Assembly: GCF_024704725.1 (NCBI RefSeq)
Contig: NZ_JALIQS010000002.1
Coordinates: 372,001 to 436,000 of the forward strand
Length of the DNA: 64,000 bases
Direction of reading: 5' to 3'
Origin: Shinella sp. CPCC 101442
GTDB lineage: Bacteria > Pseudomonadota > Alphaproteobacteria > Rhizobiales > Rhizobiaceae
The notes beneath the pieces are model-generated. The model was not told the origin of the DNA. It was given only the letters and a program-made list of their open reading frames with translations, and did not search any database. How positions within the stretch are numbered: the first letter of the stretch is position 1; each line of letters starts with the position of its first letter. Positions 45,772 to 52,741 of the stretch are shown in pieces. Both the position numbers and the translations under genes were made by a program.

Positions 45772-46665
45772 TCAGACCTCGGTGGCGATGCGGCCGATCT
45801 CGGCGATGACGGCATTGCGCTCATCGCCGGAAATGCCGGGGATTTCGACAAAGGCCGTGACGACGATCGCACCGCGGTTTGGCGACCAGGCGATGGCGAT
45901 GTCATTGGCGTTGCCTATCTTGTTGCCATTCGTTCCGGTCTTGTCACCGGTCATCCAGTCTGCTGGAAAGCCCGCACGCAGCCGCGTATCCCCGGTCTTG
46001 TTCATGACGAACCAGGCTGCAAGCTGCGCTCTTGAGGGTGCAGACAGCACGTCCGTGAAGACGAGCTTGCGCCATGTCTCCGCCATGGCGACCGGCGTCG
46101 TCGTGTCGCGCTCATCGTCAGGCGTCTCGTGGTAGTTCAGCGCCGGCTCGGTGCGGTCGAGGCGTGTTACGTCATCGCCCAATCCGCGCAGGAATGCCGT
46201 GACCGCCTTGGGACCACCCGAAGCGGCCAGCAACAGGTTGGCGGCGGCGTTGTCGCTGAGCGTGACCGTCGCTTCGCAGAGTTCGGCAATCGAAACGCCC
46301 TTGCCGCCGATGCGTTTTTCCACGACCGGCGACCAGTCGACGAGATCCGATTTCTTGACGACGATACGCCGGTCCAGCGCCTCCTCCTTGCGATCGACGC
46401 GGGCGAGGATGTGCGCAGCCAGCAGCGCCTTGAAGGTGCTGCACATCAGGAAGCGTTCCTCTGCGCGGTGCCGGAGCCGGGCATCCGTTGCGAGGTTATG
46501 TATGGCAACGCCGATGCGGCCTTCGTGGCGCGCTTCCAATGCGGCAAGCCGTTCCTGCAGCGTGCCGCCCGATGCCGCACCGGCGACGCCGGCCACGGCC
46601 GAAACCGCGGGAATGGCAAGAAGAGCGCCAGCAATCGCCTGCCGGCGTGAAATTGTCATCGTCAT
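45772..46665 (-). CDS. Class A beta-lactamase
   Basis: A 297-residue serine beta-lactamase with a twin-arginine signal (SRRQAIAGALLAIPAVSAVA). Catalytic residues are complete: STFK (Ser76, Lys79), SDN (137-139), the omega-loop E173 and N177 in RTEPALN, and KTG (242-244). The residue before the active Ser is Cys, as in some carbapenemases, but the partner Cys after KTG is Asn (KTGTNG). Spectrum cannot be predicted. No LysR-type ampR gene is adjacent. Confidence 0.93.
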   Translation of the reverse strand: MTMTISRRQAIAGALLAIPAVSAVAGVAGAASGGTLQERLAALEARHEGRIGVAIHNLATDARLRHRAEERFLMCSTFKALLAAHILARVDRKEEALDRRIVVKKSDLVDWSPVVEKRIGGKGVSIAELCEATVTLSDNAAANLLLAASGGPKAVTAFLRGLGDDVTRLDRTEPALNYHETPDDERDTTTPVAMAETWRKLVFTDVLSAPSRAQLAAWFVMNKTGDTRLRAGFPADWMTGDKTGTNGNKIGNANDIAIAWSPNRGAIVVTAFVEIPGISGDERNAVIAEIGRIATEV

Positions 46666-46803
46666 AGGTTTATTTCCTGTCTGCCGGGTACTGGAACGTA
46701 TAGCGCCCAGCCCGTTTGAGCCCGCCCATATCGCGACTATGCGCAAAGGGGCGGGTCAAAACAAACGACGATTTCTGCCGGCAGCCATTAGGAAAACTAG
46801 GGA

Positions 46804-49341: not shown

Positions 49342-50391
49342 ATGCGCGGCGCATTCTTTGCAGCAGTCTCATTGACGGCCGTTGCCACGGCCGCCCCCGC
49401 GGGCGCGGCCACGCTCAACCTGCTCATCTGGGAATCCTATATCGACGAGCAGATCCTCAAGGATTTTGCGGCCGAAACCGGCGTCGAGGTCCGCCAGACT
49501 TTCTACGACAGCGGCGACGTGCGCGACGAAATCCTCGCCGACCCCAACAGCAATATCGACGTCGTCGTGACGAACGAGAATGGCGCACGGCTCTATGGCA
49601 ACCGCGGCGTCATCATGGCGCTGGATGCGGCGAATGTGCCGTCGCTGAAGGACTATGCGCAGACCTGGACGACGCGCTGCGGCGGCTTCGGCGTGCCCTA
49701 TCTCTGGGGCACGATGGGTATCCTCTACCGCTCCGACAAGATCACCTCGCCGCCCACATCCTGGACGGACATGATGAAGCCGGCCGAGAGCCTGCGCGGC
49801 CACATCGCCATGTATGACGACCATGCCGAAGCCTTCGTCGCCCCCCTCGCCCTGCTCGGCAAATCCGTCAACGCCAATGACAACGAGACGCTGAAGGCGG
49901 CCTACGAGCTGATGAAGGCGCAGGTGCCCTATGTGCTCACCTACGATTATGTCATCACCTCCATCCAGAGCGCCGACAAGGGCCCCAATATCTGGATGGC
50001 GCTCGGCTATAGCGGCGATCAATATACGCTGAACGACAAGGTCTCCTCGCCGGGCCTCTGGCGCTATGTCGTGCCGAAGGAAGGCACGCTCTCCTGGCTC
50101 GACTGTGTTTCCGTCAGCGCGCTCTCCGAAAACAAGGACCTGGCGCTGAAGCTGGTCGACTATCTCAGCAGTGCGAAGAACGGCGCCCGCAATGCCGTCA
50201 AGCTCAACATGCCCACAGCCAGCACCGCCGCTCTGGCGCTGCTGCCGGAGGACATGCGATCCAATCCCGAAATCTATGCCGCACCGGAAATCCTGGCCAA
50301 AAGCCAGTTTCAGGAGGAGCTGACCGTGCAATCGGTCCAGGCCCGTCGCCGCATCATCAGCAGTCTGGCCCAAATCAGTGACGCTCGGTAA
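49342..50391 (+). CDS. PotD/F-like periplasmic solute-binding protein
   Basis: A 349-residue periplasmic binding protein of the spermidine/putrescine type (COG0687). A signal peptide is cut near 22-23 (AAPAGA-ATLN). Mature part: LNLLIWESYIDEQILKDFAA, VPYLWGTMGILYRSDKI, and a second lobe. No permease or ATPase gene lies nearby. Instead its last 14 bases overlap a GGDEF-EAL gene, which suggests that it acts as a sensor partner, not as a transport subunit. Ligand inferred to be a polyamine or similar. Confidence 0.9.
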   Translation: MRGAFFAAVSLTAVATAAPAGAATLNLLIWESYIDEQILKDFAAETGVEVRQTFYDSGDVRDEILADPNSNIDVVVTNENGARLYGNRGVIMALDAANVPSLKDYAQTWTTRCGGFGVPYLWGTMGILYRSDKITSPPTSWTDMMKPAESLRGHIAMYDDHAEAFVAPLALLGKSVNANDNETLKAAYELMKAQVPYVLTYDYVITSIQSADKGPNIWMALGYSGDQYTLNDKVSSPGLWRYVVPKEGTLSWLDCVSVSALSENKDLALKLVDYLSSAKNGARNAVKLNMPTASTAALALLPEDMRSNPEIYAAPEILAKSQFQEELTVQSVQARRRIISSLAQISDAR

Positions 50392-52741
50392 ACGCGCCCT
50401 TTCCCTCATCTTCCCGGTCGTTCTCGCAGGCTACGTGCTCGCCGCGTCGCTGATCTATTACGTGCAAAGCGCCTCGGTCATCGGGCTGGAGCGGGCGCGG
50501 ATCTGGCAGCAGATTGGCCTCCTGACCGCCGTATTCCAGAACGAGGTGACGCAGAACCGCAGCCTCGTCTATTCCCTCGTGGAGGGCGGAGCGGTACGCC
50601 TCTTCGTCAACGAGCCGGATGCCGCCTATCGCAGCAACGCGCTCGGCGTGCGCCTGCAGCAGAGCATCACCTCGCTCTCCGACGACGGCAAGAAATTCAT
50701 CTCGGTCGCCATCATCCGCCCGCCGCTGACGGTCGATTACTATTATGAAAACAGCGACGATCCCTTCGCCGAGATCACGCCCCAGCAGATCGAACATGCC
50801 CGCCAGGTGATCGCAAGCCCGCGGCTCTCCTCCTGGAGCTATCTCAACGTGGAGGGCATCGAGCCGCTGATCGTGCATTCGGAGTTCATCGATCCGCTTA
50901 CCTTCAACCGTCCGGTGGCGAGCGCGAAGACCGGTGCGATCCTGGTGCAGACGGCGGTGCGGCCAAAACTGTTCCTCGACATGAAGCGAGCGCTGGAAAA
51001 GGAGTACGGTGCGGAGATCGAAATCGGCCAGCACCAGTTTCTTGCCAAAGGCGCACTTTCGGCGACCGCAACGCTCAGCCCCTCGCTTTTCGCGCGTCTG
51101 ACGCCCGATACGGCCTTCCTTGAAGAACGGCTGTGGACGCTGAAATCGCTACTGGCGCTCGGCGCAATCGCGCTCAGCCTCTGCACCATCGCGCTGGTGC
51201 TCGGCCTGGTGCGCCGCTACATCACCAATCCCATCGCCAGCCTCGACCGCCAGCTCACCGATGTGATGACCGGCAGCCGCAGCGCTTTGCCCGAGATGAA
51301 CGAAGCCGGCGAAATCGGCCGCCTCTCCGCCAATGTCAAACGCCTGCACGACCATTCGAAACAGTCCTTCGACCTCGTGCAGCATGCCTCCTGGACGGAC
51401 ACGCTGACGGGCATTTCCAACCGCGAATATTTCAACATCCGCTCGACGCAGATCCTGGAAGAGGCCGAAGCCGAGGATATCGGTTGCACCCTGCTCTTCA
51501 TCGACGTGGACAACTTCAAGTTCGTCAACGACAAACACGGGCACAAGATCGGCGACGAACTGCTGAAGACGCTCGCTGCCCGCATCTCCGCCATCGTTTC
51601 GCGTGCCGTTTCCGAGCGCGGCCTGCCGGACGGACTGTTTGCCCGCCTATCCGGCGACGAGTTCGCCATCATGCTGCGCTGCCAGCCGGGCAGCGGCACG
51701 ATCACGGAAACCTCGAACCGCATTCTCGCGCTGTTCGGCGAAGGTTTCGAGGTGTTGGACAAGGCCTATCCGGTCACGGCCAGCATCGGCATCGCCGTCT
51801 ATCCCGAGGATGCCCGCACCCTGCCGGAACTCGTCGCCAATGCCGACGCGGCGATGTACCAGGCGAAATCCCAGGGCAAGAACGGCTCGGCCCGCTACTC
51901 CCGCTCGCTGCACGAAAAGCGCAACCGCCAGCGCCGCATCGAGGAGGAACTGCGCGTTCTCGATCCGGACCGCGAATTCCACCTCGTCTACATGCCCATC
52001 GTCGACGGCCACGGCAAGGTGATGGGCTGCGAGGCGCTTCTGCGCTGGAATTCCCCGGTGCTCGGCCGCGTGACGCCGGACGAATTCATCCCGATCGCCG
52101 AGACGACGGGCCTGTTCAGCAAGATCGACTGGTGGGTGATCGACCGGGCGATGGGAGAATATGGCCAGATCAAGAAGCTCTTCGGCGCCGAGACGATCCT
52201 CTGCATCAACATCTCCTCGGCCGAACTCTATACGAAGTCGATCAGCGAGCATTTCTGCGACTGCGCGGACCGCCATGGCATCGACGCGCGCTTCATCGAG
52301 ATCGAGCTGACGGAAACCTTTGCCGTGAAGCTCGGCGAACAGTCCCGCCGCAACATCGAGATCCTGCGCAGCCGCGGCTTTCGCATCTCCATCGACGATT
52401 TCGGCGCCGGCTACACGTCGGTGCAACAGATCATCGAATACCCGGCCGAGACGATCAAGCTCGACCGCGAACTGGTCGAAAGCCTCACCCGCTCGGCCGC
52501 CCTTCCGACGTTGCGCGCGCTCGTGGCGCTCTGCCATGCGCAGGACATGTCGGTGATCGCCGAGGGCGTCGATACGACGGAAAAGATGGGCCTGCTCGCC
52601 GCCGCCGGCTGCGACTTCTACCAGGGCTACCTCATCTGCCGGCCGCAGCCGCTTGAGGAGCTTGGCATCTGGGCGATGCAGCGGCTGGTGGAAAAGGCCC
52701 GGGAAGTGGCAAAGACGCCGGAGCGTCGTGCCACCGCCTAG
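50378..52741 (+). CDS. Membrane-bound GGDEF-EAL c-di-GMP protein
   Basis: A 787-residue protein. The GTG start at 50378 overlaps the binding-protein gene and has no clear ribosome binding site, so it is probably translationally coupled. TM1 is about 8-29, a periplasmic sensor about 30-252, TM2 about 256-278, a HAMP-like linker to 335, GGDEF at 340-505 (motif SGDEF at 425-429; RLSGDEF; FIDVDNF present) and EAL at 525-775. EAL catalytic residues are present (EALLRW 552-557, NISS, ELTE, DDFG 673-676, KLD, EGVDT, QGY), but YQP is YMP. It may be mainly a phosphodiesterase. The layout resembles MbaA of Vibrio cholerae. Confidence 0.9.
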   Translation: MTLGKRALSLIFPVVLAGYVLAASLIYYVQSASVIGLERARIWQQIGLLTAVFQNEVTQNRSLVYSLVEGGAVRLFVNEPDAAYRSNALGVRLQQSITSLSDDGKKFISVAIIRPPLTVDYYYENSDDPFAEITPQQIEHARQVIASPRLSSWSYLNVEGIEPLIVHSEFIDPLTFNRPVASAKTGAILVQTAVRPKLFLDMKRALEKEYGAEIEIGQHQFLAKGALSATATLSPSLFARLTPDTAFLEERLWTLKSLLALGAIALSLCTIALVLGLVRRYITNPIASLDRQLTDVMTGSRSALPEMNEAGEIGRLSANVKRLHDHSKQSFDLVQHASWTDTLTGISNREYFNIRSTQILEEAEAEDIGCTLLFIDVDNFKFVNDKHGHKIGDELLKTLAARISAIVSRAVSERGLPDGLFARLSGDEFAIMLRCQPGSGTITETSNRILALFGEGFEVLDKAYPVTASIGIAVYPEDARTLPELVANADAAMYQAKSQGKNGSARYSRSLHEKRNRQRRIEEELRVLDPDREFHLVYMPIVDGHGKVMGCEALLRWNSPVLGRVTPDEFIPIAETTGLFSKIDWWVIDRAMGEYGQIKKLFGAETILCINISSAELYTKSISEHFCDCADRHGIDARFIEIELTETFAVKLGEQSRRNIEILRSRGFRISIDDFGAGYTSVQQIIEYPAETIKLDRELVESLTRSAALPTLRALVALCHAQDMSVIAEGVDTTEKMGLLAAAGCDFYQGYLICRPQPLEELGIWAMQRLVEKAREVAKTPERRATA

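Follow-up and report, generated by a model that had tools for sequence, protein, structure and literature searches.

Two overlapping genes lie on the forward strand of a 64,000-nucleotide (nt) stretch from Shinella sp. CPCC 101442 (contig NZ_JALIQS010000002.1, positions 372,001 to 436,000; this whole stretch is referred to as the window), and it is thought, with a probability of about 0.87, that they are the counterparts of nspS and mbaA and together form a polyamine-responsive unit for the control of cyclic di-GMP (c-di-GMP). What is shown directly for the pair is its gene structure, domain content, motifs, co-inheritance and fold class. The sequence-only reading of this DNA had proposed a unit of the NspS-MbaA type in a rhizobial relative; the kind of system is upheld by sequence, gene order, motifs and fold, with the tree consistent with it, but its novelty is not, as a rhizobial pair was already studied in Sinorhizobium meliloti (smc00991-smc00992) in 2023 (PMC9993111). 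The phylogeny of NspS-MbaA in that paper holds a few Shinella isolates, with their overlap counted as 13 bp, and since the 3 bp it gives for S. meliloti is 4 nt in the count used here, its 13 bp is taken as 14 nt. Among the papers found by a search joining Shinella, c-di-GMP and polyamine, it is by title and abstract the only one that concerns such a system, and a wider search brought up only an unrelated paper. The Shinella pair is thus an ordinary member of an already described system with differences in its binding pocket, and the points that deserve testing are this variable pocket and a conserved pair of cysteines.

The overlapping gene pair

In the list of open reading frames the nspS-like gene starts with ATG and encodes 349 residues, the mbaA-like gene starts with GTG and encodes 787 (coordinates in Table 1), and the two have GC contents of 0.83 and 0.85, respectively, at their third codon positions. 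The 14-nt overlap and the GTG start described from the letters alone are exact to the nucleotide, and the apparent lack of a ribosome binding site for the second gene holds as well, with no Shine-Dalgarno-like run seen by eye in the 30 nt 5' of the GTG. Overlaps were compared at 81 loci, 80 from a scan of named genomes and one from an S. meliloti record in the plasmid collection. The 14-nt register with GTG is found at 13 of them (L070-L080, L091 and L133) and with ATG at 7 more, with a 4-nt overlap opening on GTG at 59. As the 14-nt register recurs across the loci of relatives, the overlap is not due to chance. An overlap of one of these lengths is retained at 79 of the 81 loci, the other two (L096 and L111) having broken NspS or MbaA frames, which may reflect either errors in sequencing or a real loss. 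Translational coupling of the two genes is likely in view of the overlap, and coupling has also been suggested for the NspS-MbaA family (PMC9993111). One locus of the same genus (L016, genome G006) has an overlap of 4 nt rather than 14, and its NspS match ends at residue 344.

The binding protein and the membrane sensor

The product of the first gene is of PotD/PotF type, as judged by sequence and predicted fold. It matches SBP_bac_8 in Pfam (1.9e-28), its top NCBIfam matches are PotF and PotD, both far under their equivalog cut-offs, and its AlphaFold2 model (mean predicted local distance difference test score, pLDDT, 91.5) is matched by Foldseek to PotD 4eqb with an E-value of 2.6e-28 and a TMq of 0.81, with complexes of PotF and VcPotD1 matched too. 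Hydropathy gives a hydrophobic, signal-like segment at residues 4-18, from which alone an export signal is predicted.

The product of the second gene has GGDEF (8.9e-36) and EAL (1.2e-58) matches in Pfam. The claim that it holds a periplasmic domain between two membrane helices agrees with hydrophobic segments at about residues 8-32 and 260-278 and with an AlphaFold2 model of residues 1-331 (mean pLDDT 84.8), in which an alpha/beta domain lies between the helices. A sequence search of the PDB with this sensor domain gave nothing at E-values of 10 or lower, and in Foldseek only three matches reach 0.001, all of them integrative models of other membrane receptors. Matches to double-CACHE-type domains are weak (E-values 0.001-0.06), among them PctC, TlpQ and Mlp24 (about 0.005-0.06, TMq 0.28-0.40), and the domain may be called double-CACHE-like as a fold class only.

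The output half holds the expected cyclase stretch, with an SGDEF motif that is common to the Shinella, S. meliloti and Vibrio-type copies of MbaA and has been reported for both characterised MbaAs (PMC9993111); no RxxD inhibitory site was seen by eye at the usual distance 5' of it. The usual Y-Q-P reads Y-M-P in the Shinella protein and likewise in that of S. meliloti. Downstream of the EALLRW motif the residues N, E, DD, K, E and Q are found, which we take to be further phosphodiesterase residues. For S. meliloti MbaA 12 of the 14 RocR residues are reported, as is a HAMP domain (PMC9993111). In the Shinella protein Pfam HAMP reaches an E-value of just 0.22 (residues 277-325), and such a domain is not claimed.

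Two variants of the output half were seen in relatives. In one member of the Rhizobiaceae (G107, L053:1501-3039) the MbaA-like protein stops after an AGDEF cyclase domain, without EAL and with an NspS partner upstream, and is possibly a cyclase-only version. Five Pseudomonas loci (L143-L147, three of them titled P. oryzihabitans) have AGDEF in an MbaA-like protein with an adjoining NspS homologue, and in the two that were aligned (L143 and L146) ETL stands for EAL.

Conservation of the pair

Loss of the pairing in relatives had been named beforehand as something that could speak against the proposal, and the pair proved to be conserved. With the sensor domain as query (MbaA residues 1-281), a match is present in all 21 genomes of the genus, in 27 of 247 genomes of the family (13 of 109 genera) and in 14 of 398 genomes of the phylum, two of them doubtful. 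The phylum matches in G285 and G566 (E-value about 6e-4) are partial, have internal stops and are probably due to chance; their loci, L064 and L065, are not part of the set of 57 loci described below. At the DNA level the pair shares 86.5% identity with Shinella sp. PSBB067.

The scan of named genomes used a single peptide pattern, Y[FY]E[NR]SxDPF, which matched 112 stretches, 92 of which encode a relative and the best 80 of which were kept; relatives that do not have this motif, Vibrio included, lie outside the 80. At all 80 kept loci an NspS match stands just upstream of MbaA, two of them with broken frames. The MbaA frame is truncated in S. fredii (L128), here too through either a sequencing error or a real loss. 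In a second set, made up of 55 loci from whole genomes (that of the window included) and two from plasmid records and sharing some genomes with the first set, NspS is found at 53 of the 57 loci, at one of which (L056) the genes are more than 200 nt apart. The pair is seen together across the Rhizobiaceae, other alphaproteobacteria, Pseudomonas and Marinobacterium. At three loci of the same phylum (L057, L061 and L062) the MbaA-like sensor domain is a distant one and the 3.8 kb covered there contain no NspS match; these may use another or a more remote binding protein.

In the NspS tree the Shinella protein stands beside that of Shinella curvata, and the NspS rows, with S. meliloti (L107) inside, are split from three paralogues of the same genome with a support of 90/96 (not starred). 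When distances between NspS proteins were set against those between parts of MbaA in a mirror tree of 84 pairs, the correlation was 0.934 for the sensor domain, 0.919 for GGDEF and 0.942 for EAL; not counted in these pairs are L066 (a further record from S. meliloti), L128 and xL053, in which MbaA is short, and any row that has no MbaA entry.

Eleven of the named loci (L070-L080, which come from Shinella, Mycoplana and nearby Rhizobium species) share with the window a Tex gene upstream of the pair and an Era gene downstream of it. In those members that are not Shinella, Tex and nspS are separated by up to about 2-3 kb of extra DNA. The start of Tex is at the upstream end of all 21 short loci of the genus. 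At the other named loci no match to Tex or Era at an E-value of 1e-10 was found within about 5 kb on each side. A second, divergent pair is present on another contig of Shinella pollutisoli (L141 / L030; NspS 45% and sensor domain 40% identical to those of the window), the standard pair of which is L072.

If the proposed function is right, the 21 Shinella-genus genomes examined all have control of c-di-GMP by polyamines as a fixed trait, which would make the genus a convenient second rhizobial model.

Comparison with known systems

The closest characterised system is that of S. meliloti, where the homologous genes also overlap, SGDEF is found without RxxD, an EAL motif is present, two helices surround a periplasmic domain and no polyamine genes adjoin. 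It differs in having an overlap of 4 nt against 14 nt in Shinella, a D-F pocket against N-L, and a major facilitator superfamily gene and purD as neighbours (Ak57 record) against tex and era. Identity between the two is 57-59% for NspS and 44-49% for the sensor domain.

The Vibrio cholerae NspS-MbaA system (PMC8079147, PMC8967002) shares the architecture, SGDEF, the overlapping genes (16 bp in the count of the paper) and the PotD-like partner, and differs in having EVL where Shinella has EAL and in two of eight predicted pocket residues. The NspS of L060, a locus judged to be Vibrio-type from its overlap of 17 nt, shares about 30% identity with that of Shinella. With the binding proteins of the PotD, PotF and SpuD importers the fold and much of the pocket are shared, whilst importer genes are not near the Shinella nspS and the cysteine pair is missing from the aligned importers.

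The binding pocket and the possible ligand

Eight residues of V. cholerae NspS that are predicted to touch norspermidine (W41, D70, D90, F131, Y233, D236, W261 and D263) are listed in PMC9993111, which quotes them from a published homology model and not from an NspS structure. By alignment, six of the eight are retained in the Shinella protein, with D90 replaced by N78 and F131 by L121. The alignment was checked by the S. meliloti rows, which show D and F at these positions as that paper states; the two Vibrio-type loci (L059 and L060, taken as such from their 17-nt overlap) show the same.

Over the 105 rows of the NspS alignment, among them two pairs of identical rows, position 78 holds G (55 rows), N (27), D (17), S (5) or E (1) and position 121 holds L (76), F (23), V (5) or A (1), so that the eight-residue match published for S. 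meliloti fails in most rows. The other six positions are invariant or nearly so (D59 in 101 rows). This variation makes the choice of ligand testable across lineages, and with N78 and L121 changed the ligand response of V. cholerae is not to be assumed for Shinella.

The ligand is likely to be a polyamine, with triamines of the spermidine type or putrescine as the first candidates. Two adjoining genes of the same genome (L151:296-2727) resemble carboxynorspermidine decarboxylase (401.7 bits, cut-off 409.05) and carboxynorspermidine synthase (445.8 bits, cut-off 800), both scoring under their equivalog cut-offs. With such genes spermidine or norspermidine could be made. A search for homospermidine synthase by PF03435 listed nine places in the genome, and four proteins from three of the loci (L150, L151 and L153) were scanned; in L151 this is the carboxynorspermidine-type pair, in L153 the frame is a neighbouring aldehyde dehydrogenase and in L150 the frame matched no family.

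A conserved cysteine pair in NspS

Every one of the 105 NspS rows has the cysteines C113 and C255, which all seven own-genome paralogues compared (of 12 found) lack. Past residue 25 there is no other cysteine in six of the seven NspS proteins in which they were counted, C255 follows immediately after the pocket residue D254, and no equivalents were found in the aligned importer sequences (five shown, two of them SpuD). R61, D62, Q227, W240 and R335 are likewise residues of the NspS rows that the seven paralogues do not have, and a role for R61-D62 in NspS may be supposed.

A disulfide between C113 and C255 is plausible from the sequence pattern. A bolder proposal, which is at present rather unlikely in full, is that the NspS proteins form a class of polyamine receptors of their own, recognisable by these cysteines, with positions 78 and 121 setting the polyamine of each lineage. 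The disulfide would connect the strand that bears the ligand aspartate with the loop preceding the first lobe-crossing strand, and might either fix a geometry suited to docking on MbaA, not on a permease, or give a periplasmic redox response. Of the papers listed by a search for a disulfide in NspS none is on this protein by title, nor do the main texts of PMC9993111 and PMC8967002 contain cysteine or disulfide terms; the older PMC3992718 and PMC5641875 were outside the search, so the cysteines may already have been reported. The pair would provide a simple sequence mark separating signalling NspS from importer PotD, the two being open to confusion in annotation, and one S. meliloti copy of NspS does carry the annotation "ABC transporter substrate-binding protein".

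Proposed mechanism and alternatives

Docking, the direction of the switch and the phenotype of the Shinella pair would follow V. cholerae and S. meliloti by analogy. Both proteins would be made together through translational coupling. After export the NspS-like protein would bind its polyamine ligand in the periplasm and, in one of its ligand states, dock on the MbaA-like protein at the double-CACHE-like periplasmic domain. This may shift the MbaA-like protein between net breakdown of c-di-GMP by EAL and net synthesis by SGDEF, and could thereby set biofilm, exopolysaccharide or motility. In V. cholerae it has been proposed that norspermidine-bound NspS docks on MbaA and favours synthesis, with spermidine or no ligand favouring breakdown (PMC8079147), and in S. 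meliloti disruption of nspS alters the biofilm, exopolysaccharide and motility responses to polyamines (PMC9993111).

Several points weigh against this assignment. At three of the 57 loci, all distant, a sensor match has no NspS match in the 3.8-kb stretch, and one further locus has no sensor match at the threshold. The NspS tree carries long-branch warnings, one of them for the Vibrio-type rows meeting the paralogues, and because the mirror-tree correlation is high for every part of MbaA it speaks for co-inheritance only and not for a specific contact. Two of the eight predicted pocket residues are changed. The S. meliloti phenotypes are partial and depend on quorum sensing, and mbaA expression is expected to be lost as well in the nspS mutants (PMC9993111). 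Finally, there are 19 EAL matches in the genome, so that other enzymes may mask an effect.

The changed pocket also gives room for a variant of the same mechanism, which overlaps with the assignment made here, in which the NspS-like protein signals through MbaA in response to a ligand other than the polyamines of V. cholerae and S. meliloti, such as homospermidine, agmatine or some further cationic amine. Homospermidine is a polyamine for which rhizobia are known, and the replacements N78 and L121 fall at just those positions that vary (D in 17 and F in 23 of 105 rows) among six that hardly do. Against this, the predicted pocket has kept its core of charged and aromatic residues (W30, D59, Y223, D226, W252 and D254) intact, and the list of contacts derives from a homology model (PMC9993111). 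A different ligand is considered possible at somewhat below even odds.

It could also be supposed that the NspS-like protein is an orphan subunit feeding a polyamine ATP-binding cassette (ABC) importer encoded elsewhere, its adjacency to the GGDEF-EAL gene reflecting a shared transcript only. Homology to PotD and PotF is clear, and importers that it could serve do exist, as a permease domain lies within 3 kb of 7 of the 12 paralogous binding proteins of the genome, the six best-scoring and one other, with none in the scored list for the remaining five. As the six best paralogues each stand beside a permease domain, however, those importers own a binding protein, and NspS, without one, is set apart from its closest paralogues, if not from all. 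The sequence-only reading had found no ABC permease or ATPase nearby, and indeed Pfam finds no ABC transporter part among the ten neighbouring proteins (one of which matched no family), the nearest listed PF00528 permease domain being about 51 kb off (C2:473717). This distance rests on 150 of 193 PF00528 candidates scored, weaker ones being unseen, and ATPases were not searched genome-wide. Membership of a PotD/PotF importer, for which a permease encoded alongside was sought among these neighbours and the scored candidates and not found, was rejected. The persistence of the pair from the Rhizobiaceae to Marinobacterium and the NspS-row residues missing from the seven paralogues also argue against an orphan subunit, which is very improbable.

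Very improbable too is direct sensing of a small molecule by the double-CACHE-like domain of the MbaA-like protein, with the binding protein tuning or buffering the ligand. The model does have its weak matches to the ligand-binding sensor domains of PctC, TlpQ and Mlp24, yet Shinella and S. meliloti share less identity in the sensor domain (44%) than in the binding protein (59%), and deletion of nspS in V. cholerae abolishes the polyamine response (PMC8079147).

Features and neighbouring genes

Table 1. Features of the nspS-mbaA-like pair, by position in the window
Feature	Position	Strand	Basis or remark
nspS-like gene, PotD/PotF-type binding protein	49342..50391	+	Pfam, NCBIfam, fold model, hydropathy
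W30 (V. cholerae NspS W41), predicted pocket, retained	49429..49431	+	alignment
D59 (V. cholerae NspS D70), predicted pocket, retained	49516..49518	+	alignment
R61-D62	49522..49527	+	in 105 and 103 of 105 NspS rows; 0 of 7 paralogues
N78 (V. cholerae D90), D in Vibrio-type and S. meliloti NspS	49573..49575	+	alignment
C113, conserved cysteine	49678..49680	+	105 of 105 NspS rows
L121 (V. cholerae F131), F in Vibrio-type and S. meliloti NspS	49702..49704	+	alignment
Y223-S-G-D226 (V. cholerae Y233 and D236), retained	50008..50019	+	alignment
W252-L-D254-C255 (V. cholerae W261 and D263, retained), then second conserved cysteine	50095..50106	+	alignment
Overlap of the two genes, 14 nt	50378..50391	+	GTG opens second gene; TAA of first gene 11 nt further
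mbaA-like gene, membrane sensor with GGDEF and EAL	50378..52741	+	Pfam, hydropathy
Periplasmic sensor domain, about residues 28-255	50459..51142	+	hydropathy, AlphaFold2, weak Foldseek double-CACHE matches
SGDEF motif, residues 425-429	51650..51664	+	alignment
EAL motif EALLRW, residues 552-557	52031..52048	+	alignment

The pair is flanked by a beta-lactamase-like gene and by tex, era, rnc, lepB and acpS, all named from their Pfam domains. The beta-lactamase-like gene (45772-46746 of the window, reverse strand; Beta-lactamase2, 1.4e-40) is found in the same place in L070 and L071.

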